A stretch of DNA of 45,905 nt from Lysobacteraceae bacterium (GTDB lineage Bacteria; Pseudomonadota; Gammaproteobacteria; Xanthomonadales; Ahniellaceae). Positions 1,597-37,255 of this stretch are shown here, piece after piece (position 1 is the first letter of the stretch; every line of letters starts with the position of its first letter). The stretch spans positions 1-45,905 of the forward strand of contig JAJTHZ010000117.1 of assembly GCA_021299185.1 (NCBI GenBank). Reading direction: 5' to 3'. A program made the position numbers and the translations under genes. Under the pieces are notes generated by a model, which ran no database searches, had not been told where the DNA came from, and worked only from the letters and a program-made list of their open reading frames with translations.

Positions 1597-3981
1597 TCAA
1601 CTGCGCAAAACGGCCGCGAAATCCCGGCCCAGCGCGGCGACCACCGCCCCCACCGCCGCATCAGCGTCGGCGTCCGTAAGGGTGCGGGAATCATCCTGCA
1701 AAATCAAGCCAATAGCGAGACTTCGTGTGTCGGGCTTGAGGCCTGTCCCGATGTATTCATCGAACAGATGGAGAGCGCGCAGGGCCGGACCGGCCGCCTG
1801 CCGCGCACAGGCCTCCACCGCGGCCCAGGCCACGCCCTGCGGCAGCACCATCGCGATGTCGCGTCGGACCGAAGGAAACCGAGAGAGATCGTTCGCGCGC
1901 GGCACGGAACGACGGCAGAGCGGATCGAGATCGAGCTCGAACACCAGCGGATCGTGTCCCAGGTCCAGCAGCGCCTGCAGGCGCGGATGCAGCACGCCGA
2001 CCCAGCCGACCGGGGAGCCCGACCGGAGAACGGTTGCGGAACGTCCGGGGTGCAACCAGGCCGGACCACCCGCGACGAACTGCACGTCATCGGCCGCCGC
2101 CAGCGCCAGCAGGGCCTCGACGTCGCCCTTCAGATCGAAGAAATCGGCCGCGCGCTTGCCGCTGTCCCAGTGCTCGGCCACCGCCCGCCCGAGCACCACG
2201 CCGGCCAGCCGGTCGCGCTCGATCGGGCCGGCGCCGGCCGTCGTCGCGGCGTGGAAGACGCGGCCGAACTCGAACAGCCGCAGGCGCGCCTGCTGGCGGG
2301 CGAGGTTGCGCCGCGCCGCCTCCACCAGCCCGGGCAGCAGGGCCGTGCGCATCACCGCGAGGTCGGCCGACAGCGGGTTGGCCAGCGCCACGGCGCCGTC
2401 GGCCAGACCCCAGTCGGCCAGCGTGCCGGCGGGCACGAAGGCGAAGTCGATGCACTCCGCGTAACCGCGCGCCACCAGCGCGCGCCGCAGGGCGGACGCC
2501 TCGACCCGCGTTTCGGTGACGGTTTCGACCTGCAGCAGGGCGGTCGGGATGCGGACCGGCACCTGCTCGTAGCCGTGCACCCGCACGACCTCCTCGATCA
2601 GGTCTTCTTCGATCGCGATGTCGAAGCGCGCGCTGGGCGGCTGCACGGTCCAGCCGTCGGCATCGGCCGTGACCCGCATGCCGAGGCCGGCCAGGATGGC
2701 GCCGACCCGCTCGCGCGGGACGTCCATGCCGAGCACGCGCGCAAGCCGGGCCGCGCGCAGGCGAATGGTCGGCGTCGGCGGCAGCGCCTCGGGGTGTTCG
2801 GCGGCCACCACCGGCCCCGCCTGGCCACCCACGATCGACAGCAGCAATTGCGTCAGGCGCTCGAGCGCGCGCCGCGGCAGGCCCGGATCGACGCCGCGCT
2901 CGAAGCGGTGCGAGGCATCGGTGTGCAGGCCGAGGCGGCGCGCGCGGCCGATGATCGCGGCCGGTGCGAAGTGGGCGGCCTCGAGGAACACGCTGCGGGT
3001 GGCGTCGGTGACCCGGGAATCCCAGCCGCCCATCACGCCGGCGACCGCGACCGGGCCGCCGTCGTCGGCGATCACGAGGAATCCGGGGTCCAGCGCGACC
3101 TCGCGCTCGTCGAGCAGCTTCGCCGACTCGCCGGGCGCCGCGCGGCGCACGACCACGCCGCCACGCAGGCGATCGTGGTCGAAGGCATGCATGGGCTGCC
3201 CGAGTTCGAGCATCACGTAGTTGGTGCAGTCGACCACCGCGCTGATCGGGCGCACGCCGGCGCGCCGCAGGCGCTCGGCCATCCAGACCGGCGTCGGCGC
3301 CGCCGGATCGATGCCTTCGACCACGCGGCCGAGGTAGCGCGGGCAGTCGGCCGGCGACGCGATCCGCACCGCACGCGCGGCCTGCGACGTTGTCGCAGCC
3401 GGCGCTTCGTCCCATGCCACGCGTGCGGCATCGAACAAGGTCGCGACCTCGGCCGCGAGGCCCGCCATGCCGAGGCAATCCGGCCGGTTCGGCGTCAGCT
3501 TGATCTCGATCGCGGCATCCGGCAGCCCCAGCCACTGCGAAAGCGGTGCGCCGACCGGTGCATCGGCGGGCAGTTCGAGCAGGCCAGCCGCGTCGCCGTC
3601 GAGCGCGAGTTCCTTCGCCGAACACAGCATGCCGTGCGATTCGACACCGCGCAGCGCGGCCTGCCGGATCGCCATCCCGTTGGGCAGCGTGGCGCCGATG
3701 GTCGCCAGCGGCGCCTTCAGGCCGACCCGCGCGTTCGGCGCGCCGCAGACGATCTGCAGCGGTTCGCCCTGCCCGGTCGACACCCGGCACACCTGCAGCT
3801 TGTCGGCGTGCGGGTGGCGCTCGGCCGACACGATCTCGCCGACCACCACGCCGCCGAGGCCCTCGCCCAGCACCTCGACGCCCTCGACCTCGAGGCCGGC
3901 CATCGTCAGCCGACGGCACAGCGTCGCACGATCGGCATCGATGCGGACCAGTGAACGCAACCAGTTATCGGAAAACTTCAT
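1597..3981 (-). CDS. pheT: Phenylalanine-tRNA ligase beta subunit
   Basis: This is a 794-residue beta chain, close to the usual ~795. With PheS it forms the alpha2beta2 enzyme that charges tRNA-Phe and edits mischarged Tyr-tRNA-Phe. Domains in order: an N-terminal segment ([12 protein letters not shown]), the tRNA-binding OB fold with [10 protein letters not shown] at about 55-65, the B3/B4 editing domain around 210-390, the B5 domain, the catalytic-like core, and a C-terminal FDX-ACB anticodon-binding domain with [11 protein letters not shown]. The ATG at 3981 matches the conserved start. The gap from pheS is 152 bp and contains repeats, whereas pheS and pheT usually nearly touch. Confidence 0.97.
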
Positions 3982-4023
3982 GGCAAGCCGCTCTTCATCC
4001 GGTAAGGCGCCAACCGCGCCGTC

Positions 4024-4110
4024 GCCGGGCCCATCGTGACTGGGCCCTGTACCCTGGGCCCTGGGCCCTTGTCCGACCGGTGCAATTCGCTGCGCTCATT
4101 GCACCCTACG
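4024..4110. repeat. REP-like palindromes between pheS and pheT
   Basis: The pheS-pheT spacer contains four GGGCCC motifs (4028-4068, including the run CTGGGCCCTGGGCCC). It is followed by an inverted repeat with 8-bp perfect arms, GGTGCAAT at 4079-4086 and ATTGCACC at 4098-4105, separated by 11 nt. The GGTGCAAT...ATTGCACC form resembles REP-type repeats dispersed in xanthomonad and pseudomonad genomes. The hairpin would form in the pheS-pheT transcript. Confidence 0.6.
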
Positions 4111-4133
4111 CCGAGACCGATGCCCCCAAAACC

Positions 4134-5210
<1,077 letters not shown>

Positions 5211-10968: not shown

Positions 10969-13020
<2,052 letters not shown>

Positions 13021-13136
13021 GTCGGCAATCTGGGGGCGGTGGGCGATTTTCCTACAAGCCGGCGCGGAATGTGCCCATCGCGGCACCGATCCGATGACGC
13101 CACGCTGTCAGCCACCACGATCAACAGGACGCCGAC

Positions 13137-13679
13137 ATGCAACGCCAAGGAAGGGCTTCGGGATTCAGCCTGCTCGAGTTGCTGGTCACGCTGGGGATCG
13201 CCGGGATCGTGATGGGATTTGCCGTGCCGTCGTTCGCCCGCCTGCTGGCTGACGCCGAGCTGCGCGCGGGCAGCTCCGCGCTCTCGGTGGCGCTCGCAGC
13301 GGCGCGCATGCGGGCCGTGGAGACCCGCCGACCGGTCAGCGTATGCCCACTCGACGACGCGGGGGCCTGCCGCCCCGGCAGCGACTGGTCGCGCGGTTGG
13401 ATGGTGTTCGACGACCCGCGCCAGCACGGCCGGCCGATCGGTCGGGAGGCCATCGTCGAGGTTTCGGCGCTCGACGGCCGCGGCATCGTGCGCAGTACGG
13501 GCGGCAGGCCCCTGCTGACCTTCCGCCCTGACGGCAGTTCGGCCGGCAGCAACGTCACCCTGAGCCTGTGCCATCCGGACCATCCCGGGCTGGGACGCCA
13601 GATCGTCCTCAACAATGCAGGCCGCGCGCGCAGCGGTCCACTGCCTCCCGGATGGGCCTGCACGCCCCGTCCTTCGTGA
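13137..13679 (+). CDS. FimT/GspH-type pseudopilin (stand-alone copy)
   Basis: This is a 180-residue prepilin-like protein. A class III signal (MQRQGRASG) precedes FSLLELLVTLGIAGIVMGF. Cleavage by the prepilin peptidase is expected between Gly9 and Phe10, and the +5 Glu needed for assembly is present. The C-terminal domain follows the GspH/FimT pattern (ARMRAVETRRPVSVC...GWMVF...LTFRPDG). AGGA lies 8 nt before the ATG. It is divergent from uvrB, 116 bp apart, and separated from the main pilin operon by tRNA-Asn and a terminator, so it has its own transcript. Confidence 0.88.
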   Translation: MQRQGRASGFSLLELLVTLGIAGIVMGFAVPSFARLLADAELRAGSSALSVALAAARMRAVETRRPVSVCPLDDAGACRPGSDWSRGWMVFDDPRQHGRPIGREAIVEVSALDGRGIVRSTGGRPLLTFRPDGSSAGSNVTLSLCHPDHPGLGRQIVLNNAGRARSGPLPPGWACTPRPS

Positions 13680-13813
13680 ACGCGCCCCCGGCCGGGCCGA
13701 CTTGACGCTGGCGGCGCACTGGGCGATCATTCGCGCCCTTCGCGCGCGGCTCGACCAGCCGCCGAATGGCGCTGCGCCTGGATCTCACCCAAGCATCGCG
13801 CCGATCCGACATT

Positions 13814-13889
13814 TCCCGAGTAGCTCAGTCGGTAGAGCAGGTGACTGTTAATCACCGGGTCGGCGGTTCGAGTCCGTCCTCGGGAGCCA
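13814..13889 (+). tRNA. tRNA-Asn(GTT)
   Basis: This is a 76-nt cloverleaf. Acceptor arms are TCCCGAG and CTCGGGA, the anticodon stem is GGTGA/TCACC with loop CTGTTAA (anticodon GTT), the T loop is GTTCGAGTC, and CCA is encoded. An intrinsic terminator starts about 10 nt after the 3' end. Confidence 0.97.
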
Positions 13890-13898
13890 CGTTGCAAG

Positions 13899-13928
13899 AA
13901 AAAGCCCGCCGATAGGCGGGCTTTTTTG
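13899..13928 (+). terminator. Rho-independent terminator of tRNA-Asn
   Basis: Arms AAGCCCGCC (13902-13910) and GGCGGGCTT (13915-13923) flank a 4-nt GATA loop, followed by TTTTGTTTTC. A-rich flanks also pair with the T run, so it may work in both directions and help end pilE transcription, whose stop codon is at 13952. Confidence 0.92.
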
Positions 13929-13951
13929 TTTTCTCGCCGGCGATCGATGAA

Positions 13952-14401
13952 TCACCAGCAGTTATCGGGCGCAGGCCCGAGGGCGCCCCGCACCCCATTG
14001 TTGGTGAGCGTCAGCACGCCGCAAGGATCGCTGCTCTGGAAATCGCCGGTGGGCGTTGCTCGAAGCGTGTAGCTGAGTCCATCCGCTGGCACCACCACGT
14101 CGATCTCGTACCAGGCCGTGTCGTCCGGTTCGGCCCCGACCGTGCTGTCGTCCATGTTCAAGCCGCTGTTCGCCGGATCGCCGGTCCGCGGCCCCGTAAT
14201 GTCGGCCGAGTAGCGATTGAAGGCGGTGAAGAATTTCTCCTGCTCGGCGGCGATCCGAAGCAGCAAGTTCTTGCCTTCGCTGCGGTTGGAGCGCTGGACG
14301 TACTGGGTGTAGGAAGGAACCGCGATCGCGATGATGATCGCCACGATCGCGAGCACGATCAGCAGTTCGATCAACGTGAAGCCCTTTTGTGCTTGGCGCA
14401 T
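13952..14401 (-). CDS. pilE: Type IV pilus minor pilin PilE
   Basis: This is a 149-residue pilin. The short leader MRQAQKG is followed by FTLIELLIVLAIVAIIIAIA, the canonical type IVa N-terminal helix with Glu at +5. TYxQYVQRSNRSEGKNLL is followed by the PilE-family feature of a lysine/arginine-rich turn and Tyr-rich strand. A C-terminal cysteine pair (DPCGVL...DNCW) should form the D-region disulfide. It is the last gene of the fimU-pilV-W-X-Y1-E order, 60 bp after pilY1. In Pseudomonas aeruginosa these minor pilins prime pilus assembly and join the tip complex. Confidence 0.92.
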   Translation of the reverse strand: MRQAQKGFTLIELLIVLAIVAIIIAIAVPSYTQYVQRSNRSEGKNLLLRIAAEQEKFFTAFNRYSADITGPRTGDPANSGLNMDDSTVGAEPDDTAWYEIDVVVPADGLSYTLRATPTGDFQSSDPCGVLTLTNNGVRGALGPAPDNCW

Positions 14402-14461
14402 GATTCGGTACCCTGCCTGTCCGCGGAAGCTGTCTGTCGTCGGTCACTTCAAAGATCATTC

Positions 14462-17400
14462 CTAGGGCGTCAACTCGCGCCAGGAACGGCGCCGCCACAC
14501 AGTGGTCGGGACTTCGATGCCCGGGAAATCAATCAAGGTGCCAATCCCACCGCCCACATTGATCAGCAGCGCCGGCGATCCCTCAGCCACGCTCGAGGAT
14601 ACTGATTCGCCGATTGCGCTCGAGCGATCATTGGCGTTCACCACGCCATCGCCGTTGAGGTCGATGTTCGGCGCGGCGCCGGTGGACGCGTTGAGTTCAT
14701 ACACGTTGCCGCGTAGGCCAGGCAGGCACGGATCGTCGCCGTTCGGAATGATCGTCGAGAAGATCGCAATGCCCTGCGAGAACAACGCACCCGCGGACGT
14801 GACGCCACGCTCGCCGAGGTCGACAAGGTTGATGTACCAGCCGCGTTGCGTGTCGGCGACGTCCGCGTCGGACACCGTGAAGCGGTCCGGGTCGGGTAGC
14901 GTGCCGGGGGTCTTGGTCAGGACCTGCTGCTGCAAGCTACCCTCGGTGACCGGGTAGTTCGGCGACGTGCGGCCATACTCGCGGATGCCGTACAGGCGCT
15001 GGGTCGGCACGCCGGTCACGGAGCGGTCGCCCGGCTCGAGATACTTGCCGGTGCTGACCACGGCGATGATGCCGGCGGTCTTGGCGTCCGGGAACAGGCG
15101 CGGCGCCGAGGTGATCGGGCGCACGAAGTCGGCGCTCGGATGGAACATGCGGACCACGCTCCAGTTCGACGGGCTGGGATCCGAAAGGTCGAACCGCCAC
15201 AGGTTGCCCTGCAGGTCGCCGGCCACCGCGAACTCGTCGATGAAGTCGGACTCGTAGTCGCCCATCGTCGGCGTCGTGAGCCCACGCGACACGTTCGGCG
15301 CGAACTCGAAGCGGCGGATCTCGGTGCCGGTTTCGGCGTCGAGGATGAACAGCGTGGAGCCGCCGCTCGCCGGGGCGGGGTCGGCCGGCGCCACCTGGGG
15401 CTCCGTGGTCGTCAACTGTTCGCTGTTGTATCCACCGGGCACGACCACGACCCAGCGCCCATTGGCAAGGCGGGCGATGTTGGGGCGACCGTAGGAGAAG
15501 CCCATGCGTTGAGCACCAGCGACATCGTCGGAAAACTCCCACAGCGCCACGTCGGCGGCGTTGGTCTCCGTGACGTTGGGATTGGTGATGTCGAGCGCGA
15601 ACACACCCTGCCCGCCGCGTCGCAGCGAACCCACCAGGATGGTGCGCCAGCGGCCGCCGAAGAACACGTCGCGCACCACCGGGCTGTTATCCACGTACGG
15701 CGTGAACTCAAAGGTCGGGTTGGTGAGGCGGCTCAGCGTCGGCGCGACTTCGCGCGGGACATAGGCCCAGAGTTCGCGGCCGGTGCCGAAGTCGAAGATC
15801 GGATTGCCGCTCACGTCAAAGCCCGTCGCGCCGCTGCCGGCATCGAAGGCGTGCAGCATGCCGTCGTTGGCGCCGACGTAGATGACGCGATCGCGGTTCC
15901 GATTCGCGGTGCGGAACGCCGAGTACTTGAGCGCGGGCGGGGCCTCGAACTCGGGCCCGCCCTGGAAATCTTCGTCGGTGAATGCCGCTGCCGGCGCCCC
16001 GACCACCACGGCGCCCGAGTTCACCACCGCGCCCAGCAGGCCGCCGCGGATGCGGAACGGGCCGCCGTTGTTGATCTCGTTGCTGGTATCGCCGCGGATG
16101 TACTCCAGCCGGAGCTCGCCGAGGTTGTCGTCGTCGATCACGCTGGTGACCGGATCATCGTCCAGCATGTTCCGGTAGTCGGACGGCAGCGAGCCCCAGC
16201 GGAACGGGATGCCACCACCGGTCGGGCTGGACGAGGTGATGATCACGCGGTCGGCCGAGGTGCGCGAGTTGAGGAGGGCGCCGGCTTCCCAAGCCTGCGT
16301 GCCGAGGCTGCCGTCGGGGTTGACCGACAACGCGAACACCTGGCCCGTCCAGTCGCCGGAATCGAAGCCGGTGCGGAAGACCAGGGTGCTGGCCTGGATG
16401 ATGCCCGACGTCACCGTGGCGGCCGAAACGGTGCCGCGCCGCGCGACCATGCTGGTGAGGGCGACGCTGAGCGAGTCAACGAGCTCCTGCGGGTTGGCCG
16501 CCGAGAAGAAGCCGCCGCGCGAGACCAGGCCGGCGTGCCAGAAGTCGTCGACGGTCTCCGGGAAACCCAAGCGGAACCCGGGCCAGGCGACGGTGCCTGC
16601 CCGCAGCGCGTCGTACTGCGTGGGCCAGATCCGCGCGCCGGATACGCCGAGCCCGACCGTGAAGTTGACCATGTGCTGCCAGGTCGCCGGGTCGTTGTCC
16701 GGGTTCCAGTAGATCTCCGGGTTGTCGGCCGGGTTGCCCAGCGGACCGACGATCGCGGGGCCGGTGACGCCGGTCGCGCGGTTGCCAAAGAAGGGCGGCA
16801 CGTTGTTCGCGAGGTCCGGCCGCAGGTCGTTCGCCCAGTAGCTGAAGGCGATCGTCGCCTTGCTGACCGTGCACGCGCTGTCGTTCCAGCAGCCGCCGGC
16901 ATTGGTCGGCGTCTGCACGTTGCCGATGATGCGGCTGACCGCTTCCGCCGGCACGTAGGTGCGGCCATCGGGCAGCGTGCGCCCCGCGTTCAGCGGCGCC
17001 CAGCCGAAGGGCGGCGTGGCCGTGGGGTTGGGGCCGTTGGAATAGCCGTCGGTCACGTGGACGTGGAAGTTCTGGCGGCAGGTCAGCTCGCGGTTGAGCG
17101 GCGGACCATCCCAGTAGGGATTGGTGTTGTTGGTCACCGCTGACGAGCCGTGCGCGAACAGCTGGCCGGCGCGCACCAGCGCGTTGCGGTTCGGCGTGCC
17201 GTAGAGCGTCGGCAGGCTGAAGATGTTCTGGAAGAACGCCGCGCGCGCCGCGCCCTGGAACTTGTCCAGGGTGGTGGTGCCCGGGTTGAACGGCCGCTCG
17301 GTCAGCTGCTGGTAGGCGACGCGCAGGCCCGAGTCCTGCACGCCGAAAGTGCGGGTCAAGGCGGTGCGCGCCAGCAGGTAGCGGTTGCTGTAGTACGAGA

Positions 17401-18253
17401 ACCAGTTGGCGAAGTTCTGCCGTTCGGCGGAGCTGCCGTTGGCGACGTTGACCGCCTGGTACAGGCGCGGGTTGTTGACCTGCGCCGCGACGGTCGGGTC
17501 GCCGGTGAAGCTGTAGTAGAACGCCGCCGAGGTGCCGCCCGTGGTGCCGCGGAACTGGGTGCCCGTGGTCTGGTTGTTGGCCGACGTGAACGGCAGCCAC
17601 GCATTGACGGTGGAGATGCCGACGCCGGTGCCGCCGGTCACCAGCGGGATCGGGACCGGCACCGAGGTGTTGGTCGGGTTGGTGCAGTTGTTGTACCAGA
17701 CGTCGGTGGTGCCGAGGTTCGTCACCGCGTTGAGGTTGGGGGCGAGCGGGCGCAGGCGCGGCTCATGGCCGATGAACTGCGCGGTGCTGCTGTTGGCCAT
17801 CTGAATCGCGCGCTTGGGAAAGTAGGCGGTCTCGAGGTTGATCGTCGGCGTCGGCACCTTGCCGGTCTTGGGCGAGCCCGGGCCCTCGTAGCCGTCGAGC
17901 CAGGCCGCGGTGAAGCTGGCGTTCGGGAACGGCGTGCCGTCGGCGCCCAGCGGCGGCGTGTAGAGCACGTTGGGGTTGTAATAGAGACGGTTAAAGCCAT
18001 GCCAGAAATGACGCGGATGGCGGAAGTTGCAGCCGCCCTCGATGCCGTCCGGCAGGTAGGGCACGCCCATCGAGCCGGAGTCGTCGAGGGTGACCGCGAC
18101 GTTCGGGTCCACCGAGGCGTTGAGGAACAGCGGCGCGCGCTGCAGGTTCATCGGCGTCGGGATGGTCGCCGACGCCGCGCCGGCGATGGTGGCGAGCGCC
18201 GCCGCGGCGACGAACAGGACCGGGGTGCGGACGCGGAAGGCGGAGGGCTTCAT
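14462..18253 (-). CDS. pilY1: Type IV pilus tip adhesin/assembly factor PilY1
   Basis: This is a 1263-residue secreted protein, in the usual size range. A signal peptide (residues ~10-30, ending ASA) is followed by a von Willebrand A-like region. DDSGSM at 57-62 is the MIDAS motif (Asp57, Ser59, Ser61). The C-terminal half is the PilC/PilY1 beta-propeller (VIYVGANDGMLHAFD, ELWAYVPREV). DLNGDGVVNANDR near residue 1205 looks like the calcium site that governs pilus extension and retraction. The ATG at 18253 has AAGGGG upstream and lies 3 bp after pilX. PilY1 sits at the pilus tip with PilX, PilW, PilV and FimU. Confidence 0.94.
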   Translation of the reverse strand: MKPSAFRVRTPVLFVAAAALATIAGAASATIPTPMNLQRAPLFLNASVDPNVAVTLDDSGSMGVPYLPDGIEGGCNFRHPRHFWHGFNRLYYNPNVLYTPPLGADGTPFPNASFTAAWLDGYEGPGSPKTGKVPTPTINLETAYFPKRAIQMANSSTAQFIGHEPRLRPLAPNLNAVTNLGTTDVWYNNCTNPTNTSVPVPIPLVTGGTGVGISTVNAWLPFTSANNQTTGTQFRGTTGGTSAAFYYSFTGDPTVAAQVNNPRLYQAVNVANGSSAERQNFANWFSYYSNRYLLARTALTRTFGVQDSGLRVAYQQLTERPFNPGTTTLDKFQGAARAAFFQNIFSLPTLYGTPNRNALVRAGQLFAHGSSAVTNNTNPYWDGPPLNRELTCRQNFHVHVTDGYSNGPNPTATPPFGWAPLNAGRTLPDGRTYVPAEAVSRIIGNVQTPTNAGGCWNDSACTVSKATIAFSYWANDLRPDLANNVPPFFGNRATGVTGPAIVGPLGNPADNPEIYWNPDNDPATWQHMVNFTVGLGVSGARIWPTQYDALRAGTVAWPGFRLGFPETVDDFWHAGLVSRGGFFSAANPQELVDSLSVALTSMVARRGTVSAATVTSGIIQASTLVFRTGFDSGDWTGQVFALSVNPDGSLGTQAWEAGALLNSRTSADRVIITSSSPTGGGIPFRWGSLPSDYRNMLDDDPVTSVIDDDNLGELRLEYIRGDTSNEINNGGPFRIRGGLLGAVVNSGAVVVGAPAAAFTDEDFQGGPEFEAPPALKYSAFRTANRNRDRVIYVGANDGMLHAFDAGSGATGFDVSGNPIFDFGTGRELWAYVPREVAPTLSRLTNPTFEFTPYVDNSPVVRDVFFGGRWRTILVGSLRRGGQGVFALDITNPNVTETNAADVALWEFSDDVAGAQRMGFSYGRPNIARLANGRWVVVVPGGYNSEQLTTTEPQVAPADPAPASGGSTLFILDAETGTEIRRFEFAPNVSRGLTTPTMGDYESDFIDEFAVAGDLQGNLWRFDLSDPSPSNWSVVRMFHPSADFVRPITSAPRLFPDAKTAGIIAVVSTGKYLEPGDRSVTGVPTQRLYGIREYGRTSPNYPVTEGSLQQQVLTKTPGTLPDPDRFTVSDADVADTQRGWYINLVDLGERGVTSAGALFSQGIAIFSTIIPNGDDPCLPGLRGNVYELNASTGAAPNIDLNGDGVVNANDRSSAIGESVSSSVAEGSPALLINVGGGIGTLIDFPGIEVPTTVWRRRSWRELTP

Positions 18254-18256
18254 AGC

Positions 18257-18904
18257 TTACCCCTTGGAGCGTGCGGTGTAGGTGGTCTCGACCGTGCGCA
18301 CGACGGTCTCGAGGCCGCCCGTTGCACGGGCGGTGATGCGATACATGCGCAGGTCGGAATTGCCGGCCGGCGAGCCGCCGCCGGTACCCTCGTAGTTCTC
18401 AGTGCCGGTTGCGCCGCCTTCCATCGCGGCACCCGCGCCTTGCGGGCGCACGCGCCCGAGGTCCTCGGTCAGGAACACCGGCTGTTCGGCAAGGCGCGCG
18501 GTGTATTGAGTGGTTGCGCCATAATCGACTTGGGAAGGCGACAGTGGCGTCGCGCCGGTAGTGAAGAAATCGGCGGGCGAGGCCTCGCGGAATGCGCGCG
18601 CCACGGCGGCGTCTTTGCGGAACACGCCATCGTTGCCCGCCAGGTTGCCGGCCAGGACGGTACCGTTGCTGACCAGGTACCAGTCATAAATGGTGCGCTC
18701 GCCGGCGCGATTGGCTGTTTCGGCCCCGCTGCGGGCGAGTGACTCGTTGCGAAGGCCGCCGGCCATGCGCTCCTGGGTCACGCTCTGGCGCATGCCGACG
18801 GTGGCGATCAGGCTCACCAGCACGAGGAAGATCAGGCCGATCACGAGGGCGACGCCACGCTGGCGGCGCGGCATGGTCATGCGGTTCATTGCGGATGCAC
18901 CCAT
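18257..18904 (-). CDS. pilX: Type IV pilus minor pilin PilX
   Basis: This is a 215-residue protein. A leader ending RRQRG precedes VALVIGLIFLVLVSLIATVG, a pilin helix without the +5 Glu, as expected for PilX/GspK-type tip subunits. MRQSVTQERMAGGLRNESLA after the helix is the family-conserved stretch. I chose the ATG at 18904 because it follows the pilW stop by one base. An ATG at 18889 is equally possible, and neither has a strong Shine-Dalgarno sequence. Translation is probably coupled to pilW. It works with PilY1, the next gene. Confidence 0.9.
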   Translation of the reverse strand: MGASAMNRMTMPRRQRGVALVIGLIFLVLVSLIATVGMRQSVTQERMAGGLRNESLARSGAETANRAGERTIYDWYLVSNGTVLAGNLAGNDGVFRKDAAVARAFREASPADFFTTGATPLSPSQVDYGATTQYTARLAEQPVFLTEDLGRVRPQGAGAAMEGGATGTENYEGTGGGSPAGNSDLRMYRITARATGGLETVVRTVETTYTARSKG

Positions 18905-18905
18905 G

Positions 18906-20294
18906 TCAGTAGTTGTAGCCACGCAGGTTGACCAGGGTCCGGAATTCGCGGCGCAGCATGCGGCCGGCCGGGAGCCCGTTGCGTGTCGCTCCGAGTGCCT
19001 GCGGGTTCTCGAACTGCGCCGCGTTGTTGGGGGTGCCGTCGTTGAGCCACGAATAGCGGAACTCGTCGTCGTTGGTCGACGAGATATCCTCCACCGTGTT
19101 GGCTAGCAGGTAGACCTCGATGCTCTTCACGGCACGCCAGCCGCAGCCGGGTTCGTTCTGGCTAAGCGCTGGCGCCGGCAGGATGTTCGCCGGGTTCGGC
19201 GGGCAATCCTGCGACAGCGCGCCGAGCGCATCGACCTGCGCAGCGGTCAGGTAACGGGTACGCCCTTGCGAGTCTTCCACCCCGTACAGCAGGTCGAAGC
19301 GTTCGATTCCCTCCACCAGGCCCTGCGCGACGTTGGCCCCTTCTTTGCGCATCAGCACGCTGATGAGACGCCCGGGCGTGCGGTTGTCGTTGGCGATCAG
19401 GAGATAGTACGACACGGTCCGCAGCGCGGTCGGCAGGTGATAGGCGCGCGCGTTGTTCACCACGTCGAGGCGTCGCATCCGGTCGCTGGTGAAATTCGCG
19501 GGCGTCATCTCGATTGAGACGACACCAGGAGCGGGCGCAGGTGGCGGCCCCACGATGGTTCCCAGGAACATTTCGCTGAGCCCACAGTCCGACACCCAGA
19601 TCGGGGAATTGGCCGTCATGCCGGCGAACCCCGCGCGCGCCAATTCCGCAGGGTCATTCACGACGTCGATTACAGGGCGCGCGCCACCCGCCTGCCATTC
19701 GCGCTGGTTGACGACCCGAACGCCCTCGCCGGTGAGGTAGCGGACGGTCAGCACATCGGCGCCTTGCGCGCGCTGCCCCACGGCTGACCCCATGTTCGGA
19801 ATCGCGGCCCCCAGCAGGTTGACGCCACGGTTGGCCGCGTTGAGCGCCGGTGTGCAGGCGCCGATAGCGCACTCGTGTCCCACCATCATGAAGCGTGGGC
19901 TGAGCAGGTACGGCGCCCCGAAGCCGGTCGGCCCGAGGCGGAGGCTGGGGTTGGTGGCCGCGTTGAAGTAACTGAACGCCGCGCGCGCGGTGTCAACGTA
20001 GATGTTGGGGAACGGGCCGATGACGCTGGATGCCGCGGAATCGAAGTTGGAGCAGTGCTGGGCGGACGCGGCGCGCAGGTCGGCGGCGATCCGCTGCATC
20101 GCGAAGCGGCCGTTCTCCTGCAGGCGCGCGAGGCCGTCCTGCGTGCGGTTGGCCACGCCGATCGCGTTGACCAGGGTGACGAGGCCGATGATCACGATCG
20201 ACGAGATCACCAGGGTGACCATCAGTTCGATCAGCGACAGGCCGGCCATGCGGCGCACGGCGGCCGGCGTGCGCGCGGCGATCGCGGTACTCAT
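18906..20294 (-). CDS. pilW: Type IV pilus minor pilin PilW
   Basis: This is a 462-residue protein, longer than many PilW. A 17-residue leader ends MAG before LSLIELMVTLVISSIVIIGL; +1 is Leu and +5 Glu is kept. RTQDGLARLQENGRFAMQRIAADLR is the typical PilW post-helix sequence. Paired cysteines (HCSNF, CAIGACTP, DCGLS, DCPP, GCGW) suggest disulfides in the exported domain. The start at 20294 overlaps the pilV stop by 4 bp, so translation is coupled. PilW joins PilV, PilX and FimU in the tip complex under PilY1. Confidence 0.92.
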   Translation of the reverse strand: MSTAIAARTPAAVRRMAGLSLIELMVTLVISSIVIIGLVTLVNAIGVANRTQDGLARLQENGRFAMQRIAADLRAASAQHCSNFDSAASSVIGPFPNIYVDTARAAFSYFNAATNPSLRLGPTGFGAPYLLSPRFMMVGHECAIGACTPALNAANRGVNLLGAAIPNMGSAVGQRAQGADVLTVRYLTGEGVRVVNQREWQAGGARPVIDVVNDPAELARAGFAGMTANSPIWVSDCGLSEMFLGTIVGPPPAPAPGVVSIEMTPANFTSDRMRRLDVVNNARAYHLPTALRTVSYYLLIANDNRTPGRLISVLMRKEGANVAQGLVEGIERFDLLYGVEDSQGRTRYLTAAQVDALGALSQDCPPNPANILPAPALSQNEPGCGWRAVKSIEVYLLANTVEDISSTNDDEFRYSWLNDGTPNNAAQFENPQALGATRNGLPAGRMLRREFRTLVNLRGYNY

Positions 20295-20824
20295 GGCGTC
20301 ACCACCCAGGTGAAGGTGCCTTGGACGGCGCCGACGTCGGTCTCGCCCTGCTCGGTCCAGGTCAACCTGATCTCGCATGCGCCGTTGTAGATCGGGACGG
20401 TCTGCAACTGCACCGGCGTGGGCAACGGACGCCCACCCTGCGGCGTGCAGACGATCTGCCCTGACCCTCCGGGCAACAACTGGCCGACCATCTGCCCCCA
20501 GGCCCAGACGTCGCGCGCAGCGACCTCCGCCGGCCCGCAGGGCGCGCCCGCCGTGCAGGGCACCGCCGGGGCCGGCACCGTCGAATCCCAGACCCCGTCG
20601 TACGCGTCCAGCCATACGCCGACGATGTTGGCGCGCATGCGGTCGGCGATCGACTCGGCGACGAACGTGGCCTGGCTGTGCAGGAAGCCCACATGGTTGG
20701 CGCGGATCGAAGCCGTGAGCAGCAGGCCCAGCCCGATCAGGCCGACGCTGAACACGACCACCGCGATCATGACTTCGAGGAGCGTGAACCCGCGCTGGCG
20801 CGGGAAGGCGGGACGGCGGGCCAT
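20291..20824 (-). CDS. pilV: Type IV pilus minor pilin PilV
   Basis: This is a 177-residue prepilin. The leader MARRPAFPRQRG precedes FTLLEVMIAVVVFSVGLIGL with Glu at +5. SIRANHVGFLHSQATFVAESIADRMRAN is the PilV/GspI-type continuation. Three cysteines lie in PCTAGAPC and IVCTPQ, and a fourth in GACEIRL. It starts 1 bp after the fimT/fimU stop and overlaps pilW, so the four genes read as one operon. Confidence 0.92.
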   Translation of the reverse strand: MARRPAFPRQRGFTLLEVMIAVVVFSVGLIGLGLLLTASIRANHVGFLHSQATFVAESIADRMRANIVGVWLDAYDGVWDSTVPAPAVPCTAGAPCGPAEVAARDVWAWGQMVGQLLPGGSGQIVCTPQGGRPLPTPVQLQTVPIYNGACEIRLTWTEQGETDVGAVQGTFTWVVTP

Positions 20825-20825
20825 G

Positions 20826-21374
20826 TCAGCAGTTCATCGCAGTGTTGGTGGCGGCCTTGCGCGACTCGGCGCGGCCGGAGCGCTCGAGCCGGATGCCGCG
20901 CGAGCGATCGGCGTCGTTGTCGGGGCGGCAGATCGCGAATTCGATGGGGTTGGTTCCGGCGGGGCCGATCACCGCTCCGGTGACGCCGAAGGCAATGGGG
21001 TTGGCGGGAATGCCACTGGTATCGCCCGCCTCTATGGTGAACTCCGGCTCGGCCTCGCCATGGCGCTTCACGACCTCGGACTCGTCGACACTGCCGTCGG
21101 CGTCGAGGTCGGTCCACACGATCCAGCCGTCAGTCCAGTCGCCGGTCTCCGCCCGCACCTCCGTGCGCCGCGCGTACTTTACCGCCTCGCTGCGCGCGAT
21201 CGCCAAGTCCGAGAGCAGGTCGTTGGTCTGCACCGAGGTGCGGTAATTGACGACGAACTCCTGGAACGAGGGCACCGCCATGCCGAGCATGATCGCCAGG
21301 ATGGCGACCACGGTCACCAGTTCGATGATCGAGTATCCGCGCACTCGCCGTGCCATCGCCGGGTTCGCTCGCAT
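20826..21374 (-). CDS. FimT/FimU-type minor pilin, first gene of the pilin operon
   Basis: This is a 182-residue prepilin from the ATG at 21374 (MRANPAMARRVRG), preceded by GGAGAG. A GTG at 21389 would add five residues. Mature start YSIIELVTVVAILAIMLGMA has Glu at +5. DLAIARSEAVKYARRTEV and DWTDGWIVWTDLDADGSVD match the GspH/FimU pattern. DLDADGSVDES resembles a Dx[DN]xDG calcium loop and may be one. It occupies the fimU place before pilV. The operon promoter should lie in the 203-bp gap towards ppnN; I see no clear boxes there. Confidence 0.88.
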   Translation of the reverse strand: MRANPAMARRVRGYSIIELVTVVAILAIMLGMAVPSFQEFVVNYRTSVQTNDLLSDLAIARSEAVKYARRTEVRAETGDWTDGWIVWTDLDADGSVDESEVVKRHGEAEPEFTIEAGDTSGIPANPIAFGVTGAVIGPAGTNPIEFAICRPDNDADRSRGIRLERSGRAESRKAATNTAMNC

Positions 21375-34008: not shown

Positions 34009-34818
34009 TCAGCCCAGCAGGCCGAAGTACCAGGCCGCCGCGCCGACTGCCGCGACCGCGAGCACGGCGAGCACCACCCAGCCGATGCCGCCGCCGCCCT
34101 TCTCGGCCGGCGGCGCGGCCGCGGGTGCCGGCGCCGTGGCCGGCTTGGCGGCCTGCTGCACCTCCATGCCGGGGGCCACCAGCAGGAAGCGCACGGTGTC
34201 GAGGCGCAGTTCCTCGCCGGGCTTGAGCAGGCCCTGGTGCACGCGCTTGCCGGCGATGAAGGTGCCGTTGGCGGAGCCGAGGTCCTCGACCGCGATGCCG
34301 TCCGGCATAACCGACAGCTTGGCGTGGTGGCGCGAGATCTCCTCGCCCGGAACGCTGATGTCGCATTCGCTGTGGCGCCCCACGGTCACGGTGCCGAACA
34401 GCGGGTAGGTCTTGCCGAAGGTGGTGCCGCTGACGCCGCGCAGGACGAACTTCGGCAGCGCCATGCGCACGCGCGTGCGGCCGTCGTCCTCGGCGTCCTG
34501 CTTCTTCGGCGGCGCGACGGGCGCCGCGGCCGGGCGGTCGAGCGCGACCACGCGCGCGCCGACCTTCGCGAACAGCACCAGGTCGCCGGGCTTGATCGGT
34601 GTGTCCGCCGTCGCCTGGCGCCCGTTGACGACCACCACGCTGCCGTCGCCGACCGGCCGCACGCTACCGGATTCGCCGCGGCAGGTGATCTCGCAATGCT
34701 GGTGGGCGATGCCGGGCGCGACGATCGTGATGTCGCTGCCGGCGCCGCTGCCGACCCGCGTCACGCCATCCTTGAGTTCATGCGGCGCATGCTCGCCGTT
34801 GGGGAACAGCAGCTTCAT
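34009..34818 (-). CDS. Membrane-anchored protein with two FHA domains
   Basis: This is a 269-residue protein. FHA-1 (residues ~15-75) contains VGSGAGSDITIVAPGIAHQH, where the Arg and Ser that bind phosphothreonine in canonical FHA are replaced. FHA-2 (~135-205) is canonical: VGRHSECDISVPGEEISRHH and DLGSANGTFIAGKRVHQG. A Pro/Ala linker is followed by a C-terminal membrane helix (GWVVLAVLAVAAVGAAAWYF). AGGACC lies before the ATG at 34818. It starts 34 bp after the kinase stop in the same direction, so it probably reads phosphothreonine made by that kinase. Confidence 0.9.
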   Translation of the reverse strand: MKLLFPNGEHAPHELKDGVTRVGSGAGSDITIVAPGIAHQHCEITCRGESGSVRPVGDGSVVVVNGRQATADTPIKPGDLVLFAKVGARVVALDRPAAAPVAPPKKQDAEDDGRTRVRMALPKFVLRGVSGTTFGKTYPLFGTVTVGRHSECDISVPGEEISRHHAKLSVMPDGIAVEDLGSANGTFIAGKRVHQGLLKPGEELRLDTVRFLLVAPGMEVQQAAKPATAPAPAAAPPAEKGGGGIGWVVLAVLAVAAVGAAAWYFGLLG

Positions 34819-34852
34819 CTTCGGTCCTGCCCATCGACGGGGGAGCGCCCCG

Positions 34853-37255
34853 TCAGTCGATCTCCCGCACCACGCGGAAGCCCACGGTGTTCGCCGACAC
34901 GTCGGCGCCGAACGCCTCGCGCTGGCGCGGATCGGCGGCGTCCGCCGTGCTGTGCCAGGCGCTGCCCATCGCGGTCCGCTCGCGGCAGCCGGGTGCGCAA
35001 TCCGCGACCCATTCGCGGACGTTGCCGGCGATATCGTACACAGCGCCCGCCGAGGCATCAAAACGACGTGAGGGCGACGTCGCGGCGAAGCCATCGTCGC
35101 AGGCCAGTGCGTCGTTGTCGCGGTACTTGGCGCGGAACGCCGCGTCGGCGAGGTTCGCCTTGCAATCCGCGGGCGCGGGCGCGCCTGCGGCCAGCGCCAG
35201 CCACTCGGCCGCGGTCGGCAGCCGGTAACGCTTGCCGGTGCGCCGGGTCAGCCATTCGGCGTATGCCTCGGCATCGCCAGCGGTGATGCACACCACGGGG
35301 TGGTCGCCGCCCTGCTCCACGTCGGGCTTCTCGAACGAGCGCGAGCGCGAGGAGCGGAAGAACGACTCGCGGTCGCGGCACGCGGGGCGATCGCGGCGCG
35401 CGGTCGATCCGCCGTCGGCCCAGAAGGCCCGGAACTCGGCCAGCGTGGTCTCGCCACGCGCCACCGCGAGTCGAGCGCCCGCGACCACCACCATCTCCGG
35501 ACCCCGCGCCTTGTCGCCGGCACGGTCGCGGAACACGAACCCGGGCTTGCCGATGCCGGCAGCCGCGCGCAGGCCGCGCTGCGCGTCCTGCGAGCCGGGG
35601 TCGAACAGCAGGGCGCGCTCGAAGCCGGCCTTGGCGGCGGCCCCGTCCCAGGCTTCGACCGCGCGGCGCGCGCCCGCCAGCGCCTCGTCGCGCAGTGCGG
35701 CCATGCGCGCGGCCAGCCGCGCGCCGAGTTCGGCGCCCTCCGGCACCTCGCCGGCGATCTCGCGTGCGCGGCCGATGAAGTCCACGAACGCGCGCGTGTC
35801 GCCCTCGGCCAGGGACTTTTCGGCCAACTCGGCATACGCCGCCGCGGTGGCGACCAGTCCCTCGCGGGCCCGCGTCGCATCGGCCGCGGCGCGGAAGCGC
35901 TCGGCCAGGCGCAGCGCCAGGCGATAGCGCTCGAGCGCATTGCGGCCGGGCGGGTTGCCGAGCCGCTGCGCGGCGACATCGGCACGTGCGATCGCGAGCA
36001 GGCTGGCGATCGGATCCTGCACGCCGGTGTCGATCGCGCGCTGCAAGGCTTGCGGATCGTCGGGCGGTGCGTCCGGCGGCACCGTGGCGTCGATCGGCGC
36101 ACCCACCGCCGGCGCGGGCTCCATCGCGGCGTCGCTCGCCGCGGCGGGCGACGCCTCGCCCACTGCCGACGGGGCGACGGGCGGCGGCGCCACCGCGACC
36201 GCGGGCGCCGGCGCGGGATCGGCGCCGCGCTGGCCCATGAAGGCCGCCAGGCCCAGCCCGCCGAGGCCCAGCACGATCGCGGCGACCGCAGGCCACAGCA
36301 GGCGCGACCCGGGCGCAGCCGCGTCGGGCGTCGGCAGGCGAGCCGGCGCCGGCGTCGCCACCGTGGGGGCCGCCGCGGCAGCCGGCGGATCGAGCCGCGG
36401 CAGGGCCTCGTGCACGCCGGTGGTGCGCACGCTGGGCAGTCCGATGCTGAAGCCGGCGCTGGCGCCGACCGCCTCCAGCGCGGCGACGAAGGCCTCGCTG
36501 TCGGGGAAACGATCCGCCGGGTCCTTGGCCAGCGCGCGATCCACCAGCGGCTGCCATGCCGCGAGCCGCTGCGGCAGGCGCGGCACCGGCTCGAACACGT
36601 GCGCATAGGCGATCGCGAAACCGTCCTCGCCGTCGAACGGCGGCTGTCCGGTCAGCGCCTCGTAGGCCACCGCGCCCAGCGAGTACAGGTCGGAGCGCGC
36701 GTCGACGTTGCCGCCGCGCGCCTGTTCGGGACTCATGTAATGGCTGGTGCCGACGCTGGCGCCGGCGTTGGTCAGGCGCGAGGTGCGGGTCACCGCGCGG
36801 GCGATGCCGAAGTCGGTCAGCACCGGGTTGTCGCTGGCGTCGAACAGGATGTTGGCCGGCGAGACGTCGCGGTGCACGAAGCCGCGCAGGTGGGCGAAGC
36901 CCAGCGCGCGCGCGACGCCGGCCAGCACGAGCGCCACCTCCGACGCGTCCGGCGGACCGGCTTTGATGCGCTGGGCGAAGTCGCCGCCCGGCAGGTGCTG
37001 CATCGAGAAGTAGTGCAGCTGCTGCTCGGTCACGCCGACGTCGTAGACGGCGACGATGTTGGGGTGCGACAGCGACGCGAGCGTGCGCGCCTCCATCAGG
37101 AAGCGACGCGAGAAGTTCGGATCGGCGACCAGCGCAGGCGTCATGACCTTGAGCGCGACTTCGCGCTCGAGCGAGGTCTGCACGGCCAGGTACACCGTGG
37201 CCATGCCGCCGACGCCGATCTCCTGCTTGATCGTGTATCCCGCTACCTGGATCAC
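34853..37255 (-). CDS. Membrane Ser/Thr protein kinase with C-terminal FGE-sulfatase-like domain
   Basis: This is an 800-residue protein from a GTG at 37255; the frame opens further upstream without family similarity. The Hanks-type kinase spans ~5-265: glycine loop GVGGMATVYLA, Lys36, Glu56, HRDVSPAN (128-135), DFG (148-150), and GTSHYMSPEQA. The usual catalytic-loop Lys is Ser, as in the HRDVSPxN group, so activity is still likely. A Pro/Ala juxtamembrane segment leads to a helix at ~319-340, a helical periplasmic region, and a formylglycine-generating-enzyme-like domain (~600-800: VVCITAGDAEAYAEWLTRRT, LPTAAEWLALA, DIAGNVREWVADC). The catalytic cysteines of true FGE are not evident, so it is probably a ligand-binding fold. 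Confidence 0.9.
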   Translation of the reverse strand: MIQVAGYTIKQEIGVGGMATVYLAVQTSLEREVALKVMTPALVADPNFSRRFLMEARTLASLSHPNIVAVYDVGVTEQQLHYFSMQHLPGGDFAQRIKAGPPDASEVALVLAGVARALGFAHLRGFVHRDVSPANILFDASDNPVLTDFGIARAVTRTSRLTNAGASVGTSHYMSPEQARGGNVDARSDLYSLGAVAYEALTGQPPFDGEDGFAIAYAHVFEPVPRLPQRLAAWQPLVDRALAKDPADRFPDSEAFVAALEAVGASAGFSIGLPSVRTTGVHEALPRLDPPAAAAAPTVATPAPARLPTPDAAAPGSRLLWPAVAAIVLGLGGLGLAAFMGQRGADPAPAPAVAVAPPPVAPSAVGEASPAAASDAAMEPAPAVGAPIDATVPPDAPPDDPQALQRAIDTGVQDPIASLLAIARADVAAQRLGNPPGRNALERYRLALRLAERFRAAADATRAREGLVATAAAYAELAEKSLAEGDTRAFVDFIGRAREIAGEVPEGAELGARLAARMAALRDEALAGARRAVEAWDGAAAKAGFERALLFDPGSQDAQRGLRAAAGIGKPGFVFRDRAGDKARGPEMVVVAGARLAVARGETTLAEFRAFWADGGSTARRDRPACRDRESFFRSSRSRSFEKPDVEQGGDHPVVCITAGDAEAYAEWLTRRTGKRYRLPTAAEWLALAAGAPAPADCKANLADAAFRAKYRDNDALACDDGFAATSPSRRFDASAGAVYDIAGNVREWVADCAPGCRERTAMGSAWHSTADAADPRQREAFGADVSANTVGFRVVREID

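Follow-up and report, generated by a model that had tools for sequence, protein, structure and literature searches.

The window analysed here is a 45,905-nucleotide stretch of DNA from a Lysobacteraceae bacterium (contig C134; genome size 4.84 Mb; GenBank assembly GCA_021299185.1, contig JAJTHZ010000117.1). Its minus strand carries two neighbouring genes, separated by a gap of 34 bp, which are the subject of this study: the first codes for a receptor-like Ser/Thr kinase with an FGE-like domain, and the second for a membrane protein with two FHA domains. Their features are as follows.

34853..37255, minus strand: receptor kinase gene, 800 aa from a GTG start, with kinase domain, transmembrane (TM) segment, helical stalk and FGE-like domain
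36506..37237, minus strand: kinase domain, residues 7-250 (Pfam Pkinase 1e-42, own-genome match and alignment)
36860..36862, minus strand: codon of Ser132, the expected site of the catalytic-loop Lys (HRDxK) in the alignment of orthologs and own-genome kinases
36233..36289, minus strand: TM segment, residues 323-341 (best 19-residue hydrophobic window)
35555..36055, minus strand: helical, possibly TPR-like stalk, approximately residues 401-567 (AlphaFold helices, mostly of high predicted local distance difference test score, pLDDT)
34865..35503, minus strand: FGE-sulfatase domain, residues 585-797 (Pfam 1.1e-25; closest solved relative PvdO)
34009..34818, minus strand: gene of the tail-anchored dual-FHA protein, 269 aa from an ATG start
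34546..34818, minus strand: FHA1, approximately residues 1-91, with the phosphothreonine (pThr) Arg and Ser replaced (model)
34474..34476, minus strand: codon of the invariant linker Thr115, kept in 70/70, after the low-confidence linker 96-114
34177..34449, minus strand: FHA2, approximately residues 124-214, with a canonical pThr pocket (Foldseek matches OdhI, GarA, CT664 and DgcB)
34027..34086, minus strand: C-terminal TM helix, residues 245-264 (model; hydrophobic C-terminal segment in 69/70)

Matches of the receptor to Pkinase (PF00069, 146.8 bits against a curated cut-off of 31.7) and FGE-sulfatase (PF03781, 91.2 bits against 23.3), together with the TM window at 323, bear out a preliminary description of this DNA, made from its letters, which had proposed a membrane kinase with an extracytoplasmic FGE-like domain. 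The VALK, E, HRD, DFG and SPE motifs are all found in the kinase domain. The window kinase has the catalytic VAIK Lys, HRD Asp and DFG Asp, a set which is incomplete in some orthologs, and it carries Ser132 instead of the catalytic-loop Lys of HRDxKPxN. The top Foldseek matches of the stalk are TPR proteins, none of which reaches E ≤ 0.001. The helical stalk, the catalytic-loop Ser and the invariant linker Thr of the partner protein are features beyond those of the preliminary description.

The solved protein closest to the FGE part is PvdO (E 1.7e-39), followed by SUMF2 (8e-21) and the FGEs (about 5e-19). All six Cys of the kinase-FGE protein lie within this part (626, 656, 698, 719, 753 and 757); Cys 656 and 719 were observed in 21/21 aligned rows, 626, 753 and 757 in 20 rows, the remaining row having a gap at each, and 698 was variable. 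The conserved ones probably form structural disulfides. The FGE chains 6muj and 2q17 possess two close Cys, which we take to be the FGE catalytic pair, and in a profile alignment the stretch opposite them is free of Cys in the receptor family. With no Cys opposite this presumed pair, a true formylglycine-generating enzyme was ruled out, and the suggestion that the FGE-like domain lacks the catalytic Cys pair holds on the same footing. The AlphaFold model of the ectodomain is unreliable across much of the FGE part, and hence we base no claim about the fold on it. The rank of PvdO ahead of the FGEs brings up the alternative of an active PvdO-type periplasmic enzyme rather than a sensor, and the accessible text on PvdO states that the last oxidation of dihydropyoverdine requires it (PMC6206403). 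We regard this alternative as very improbable: according to the same text the purified protein was inactive and its cofactor was not detectable (PMC6206403), and the FGE part scores 73.8 with the PvdO equivalog model, far from the cut-off of 500. In addition, the fusion to a kinase suggests a sensing role for the domain in the receptor. PvdO itself is described as a periplasmic protein that takes part in pyoverdine synthesis and stands alone (PMC6206403). Elsewhere, as an available excerpt states, FGE domains serve as targets of diversity-generating retroelements (PMC10907252).

The 269-aa partner matches Pfam FHA (1e-26) in two stretches, and consists of FHA1, a disordered linker, FHA2, a second linker and a C-terminal helix which ends five residues short of the C-terminus. 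Across 70 FHA proteins, the FHA2 pocket (R148, S162, R163, H165 and N184) is kept in 70/70 and has the residues of a pThr-binding FHA domain. FHA1 does not have them, since its Arg occurs in 3/70 and its Ser in 2/70, and for this reason it was rejected as a phospho-reader. This agrees with the earlier picture of a tail-anchored protein with one canonical FHA domain and one without the pThr Arg and Ser. In the linker T115, R118 and P122 are invariant (70/70), and the part preceding T115 is variable in sequence and predicted to be disordered (pLDDT < 50). The Thr motif was also found at the linker site of 9 out of 10 paralogous dual-FHA loci. The Foldseek neighbours of the protein were OdhI, GarA, CT664 (rank 3) and DgcB. 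Two identities were tried and rejected on their equivalog cut-offs: SctD of the type III secretion system (T3SS), with an equivalog score of 26.4 against 86, although the Pfam model of the YscD cytoplasmic domain (PF16697) passes over the FHA region with 83.9 bits against a cut-off of 33.2; and TagH/Fha of the type VI secretion system (T6SS), with 36.4 bits for the TagH equivalog against 120.25.

Conservation of the pair was assessed in 398 genomes of the order by profile searches with the FHA and FGE profiles. The FHA profile matched in at least 184/398 genomes (E 1e-25) and the FGE profile in at least 387/398 (E 1e-20), paralogs and stand-alone FGE proteins included. Systematic matching to FHA partners covered the 36 best FGE matches, which end at the lowest-scoring one to have such a partner (E 4.7e-66, in G236). 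Of these, 34 are followed on the same strand by the FHA ortholog at a distance of 23-436 bp (median 52). These 34 pairs come one per genome, from 34 genomes in six families, and the other two matches lie in genomes which have the pair as well. The co-occurrence expected from the preliminary description is thus real in this sample. The closest FHA proteins among named organisms are mostly from Lysobacterales (Dokdonella, Pseudomarimonas, Arenimonas, Marinicella and metagenome-assembled genomes, MAGs), and on this basis the genome of the window appears to belong to that order.

The genes upstream of the pair are sspB, a gene of the GST fold (sspA) and petCBA, the last named from sequence, with a divergent DUF3301 gene in between, and downstream lies a convergent nadC. 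The petABC-sspAB and nadC flanks are as conserved as the pair itself. Shared synteny with them accounts for much of the adjacency, which is therefore weak evidence when taken alone. It could be argued that the adjacency is inherited gene order alone and that the FHA protein serves other partners, as several genomes, among them those of Lysobacter arvi and Arenimonas daejeonensis, have the FHA gene between sspB/DUF3301 and nadC but no kinase there. We consider this unlikely. In one genome (G002) kinase and FHA gene stand together, and none of the usual flanks was found in 16 kb; Simiduia (L136) and Microbulbifer (L148) show a different arrangement, in which a dual-FHA gene is oriented divergently to a PP2C gene and a kinase-FGE gene; and in the genome of the window a paralogous dual-FHA gene follows a dCache-HAMP kinase with a single gene in between. 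As support for the pairing, synteny alone is weak, G002 is stronger, and the Simiduia/Microbulbifer arrangement is stronger still. Because the partner follows 34 of the 36 FGE matches and the arrangement differs in Simiduia and Microbulbifer, the association of kinase and FHA protein is above chance.

The Simiduia/Microbulbifer cluster is distant support, since the dual-FHA proteins of this group share only 26-31% identity in the best segment. The PP2C gene, whose product has a hydrophobic C-terminal end, lies between kinase and dual-FHA gene (L136 4924-5775; L148 4705-5814); at L139 the PP2C is present (1073-2026) and the kinase is interrupted by the contig end. No such kinase was found within 6 kb of two Gilvimarinus and two Cellvibrio loci of the Simiduia-type group. 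Class-wide searches with profiles of this type matched in 3/369 genomes for the FHA protein (E 1e-30; one of them outside the order) and in 0/369 for the kinase-FGE protein (E 1e-150), and both results are indecisive. In Simiduia, as in Gilvimarinus, the dual-FHA gene has a DUF5610 gene after it.

The catalytic-loop Lys is absent from all 31 readable orthologs of the receptor kinase, being replaced by Thr (14), Ala (13) or Ser (4), and is present in 27/27 other aligned kinases of the same genome. The ortholog count excludes G009, G049, G055 and G383, whose kinase domain lies outside the contig, G236, whose motifs are gone, and G032, where the kinase-FGE relative is located elsewhere and bears the Lys (HRDVKPAN). 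The own-genome set derives from 38 kinase matches, 30 of which were fetched; 29 had the motif (28 with Lys, plus the window kinase), and 27 others were aligned. As judged from these alignments, the Lys change is the mark of a clade among the receptor kinases. It is not unique, because in a published survey of cyanobacterial kinases, as far as its available text goes, 86.7% have Lys at that position (PMC2176072). The remaining motifs are largely kept: the HRD Asp in 29/31 orthologs, the VALK Lys and DFG in 31/31, the activation-segment GT and SPE in most, and the activation-loop T162 in 28/31. R160 is found in 28/31 orthologs against 3/27 other kinases, and R96 and R180 also differ between the sets; as to these residues as Lys substitutes, no inference is drawn without a structure.

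Decay has gone further in some lineages. The HRD Asp is gone in G037 and in Dokdonella L120, G013 retains HRD and DFG with an altered activation segment, and G236 has the stalk, the FGE domain and the FHA partner with neither a kinase motif nor a Pfam kinase match. The frame at this last locus (L209) has 907 codons, with the FGE match at 3930-4583, and its recognisable kinase motifs are lost. The cases of G037, L120 and G236, the Lys-less state of all 31 orthologs and the 38 kinase matches in the genome of the window would fit a receptor that is already pseudokinase-like, in which the Lys-less fold would influence the FHA protein through binding and not through phosphorylation, while one of the cell's other kinases phosphorylates T115. 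This we find doubtful, given that the catalytic residues are largely kept, that Lys-less kinases exist elsewhere (the available part of PMC2176072), and that the Lys is found in the kinases of both Simiduia and Microbulbifer. A related reading is somewhat easier to accept, though still tentative: the receptor-kinase family may be en route to pseudokinase receptors, the Lys having gone from every ortholog read and catalysis being degraded afterwards in separate lineages, with no gene at all in others, while the FHA partner with its invariant Thr stays and could be driven by other kinases.

A tree was made of the 70 FHA proteins, at 34 of whose loci the adjacent kinase ortholog is missing. On the best tree the state 'absent' requires at least five changes (three forced by starred branches), and 'impaired' requires three (two forced), which places degraded kinases in three lineages. 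The changes are unpolarised, and absence therefore stands for loss or for lack of gain. Four loci on contigs without the kinase domain (L057, L058, L059 and L201) were labelled intact by presumption, and the tree omits the duplicates L116, L117 and L118 and the Marinicella-type rows L066, L068, L123, L126 and L144. All 70 proteins retain T115 and the pocket residues of FHA2 despite altered or missing kinases, and the FHA protein can therefore be regarded as the conserved core and the kinase as one input. The best reading of these sequences is that the FHA protein looks like a conserved core phospho-switch and the FGE kinase like a replaceable input. The notion of a compact sensor-kinase/phospho-reader module in the preliminary description stands in so far as the pair is conserved and a related kinase-FGE/PP2C/dual-FHA cluster exists; a self-contained two-gene unit is not supported, in view of the FHA loci without the kinase and the altered site in every readable ortholog.

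We propose a membrane-bound dual-FHA pThr switch for which the kinase-FGE receptor, where present, is the dedicated input, a proposal to which we give about even credence. Architecture, adjacency, residue conservation and the pattern of presence and absence are direct observations; ligand binding, phosphorylation of T115, binding of FHA2 to pT115 and docking at T162 are steps that we infer. The periplasmic FGE/PvdO-like head, carried on the helical stalk, would bind a ligand and control the cytoplasmic kinase. T115 would be written by the FGE kinase where this is active, and other kinases would provide the input where the receptor is degraded or missing. Once phosphorylated, T115 would be bound by FHA2, either within its own molecule or in an adjacent one, in the manner of GarA, OdhI and DgcB, and this binding would alter what the cytoplasmic face of the FHA protein can bind. 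FHA1 would be a scaffold which reads no phosphate, and FHA2 may dock on the kinase via its activation-loop T162. The proposal draws on the conserved pair and its counterpart in Simiduia and Microbulbifer, on the invariant T115, R118, P122 and FHA2 pocket beside a variable linker, on the closeness of the FHA2 fold to self-binding FHA proteins, and on T162 in 28/31 kinases.

Several observations weigh against this proposal. Besides the loss of the catalytic-loop Lys from all readable orthologs and the equal conservation of the flanking genes, T115 is equally kept at the 34 loci that have no kinase ortholog next to them, and because of this it need not be the site of the FGE kinase. The Thr motif is wanting in one paralogous locus (L078) and in the distant dual-FHA homologs L138, L143, L145 and L147. 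Furthermore, the +3 residue of the T115 motif is Arg, and the DgcB paper, in its accessible part, emphasises hydrophobic residues at +2 and +3 (PMC6733907).

If the proposal is true, the pair gives the kinase-FGE receptor a concrete downstream target, with T115 as the residue and FHA2 as the reader, to which Simiduia and Microbulbifer add a phosphatase. The natural series from full motifs through degraded ones to none would then show whether the FHA protein can switch its kinase input, and also what abilities remain in a kinase without the catalytic-loop Lys.

The component types are known from other systems, and it is the combination of kinase-FGE and dual-FHA proteins that appears to be new. 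In T6SS the kinase PpkA, the PP2C phosphatase PppA and the FHA protein Fha cooperate; the four genes after the Simiduia dual-FHA gene, unlike these, do not belong to T6SS families. A link between T6SS Fha and pThr is described in the accessible portion of PMC3953482. DgcB in crystals had its own phospho-Thr tail bound, and its authors liken it to GarA and OdhI (PMC6733907, available text). With these proteins the window protein shares the FHA2 fold and, going by the available descriptions, a conserved Thr located in a flexible stretch ahead of an FHA domain; it differs in having two FHA domains, a membrane anchor, the Thr in an inter-FHA linker, Arg at +3 and a self-binding that is putative, and it scores 43.9 bits with the OdhI model against a cut-off of 200. 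In Chlamydia, PknD phosphorylates both FHA domains of the membrane protein CdsD (PMC2765968, available text), again a membrane-associated kinase with a dual-FHA membrane protein, and the FHA fold of CT664 was the third-ranked Foldseek match noted above. CdsD, however, is a T3SS component, whereas the window protein falls below the SctD cut-off (26.4 against 86), and the available text reports no FGE domain for PknD (PMC2765968). Fusions of a kinase with DUF323 (FGE) in Chlamydia and cyanobacteria have been published since 2005 and likewise join a Hanks kinase to a C-terminal FGE-type domain; no dual-FHA partner is reported for them in the accessible parts of these papers (PMC1262709, PMC2176072). 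The open-access papers searched, among which subscription papers are mostly not included, contained no report of the kinase-FGE and dual-FHA pair, and none of the Lys change across the clade or of the invariance of the linker Thr.

Related genes occur in the same genome and elsewhere. Contig C33 of the same genome (G000; L079, 2965-7796) carries the dCache-HAMP kinase, which has a normal HRDIKPEN motif, a 365-aa protein without a Pfam match and the paralogous dual-FHA protein; this system would be in keeping with a family of FHA readers whose receptors can be exchanged. A second kinase-FGE fusion of 732 aa with HRDVKPAN lies on contig C228 (L114, 6372-8570, minus strand), with no FHA match near it in the 11 kb read. 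In a Pseudomonadaceae MAG (L159, 3693-6597), a 754-aa kinase that the FGE profile does not match has a dual-FHA gene after it in the same orientation. Alongside its 38 kinase matches, the genome of the window has one PP2C_2 match, which lies outside the window on contig C49 (about 12903-15027) beside another kinase. Within the window, at 13952-21344, we observed a run of genes whose N-termini resemble type IV pilin/minor pilin precursors, including one for a 1263-aa protein.

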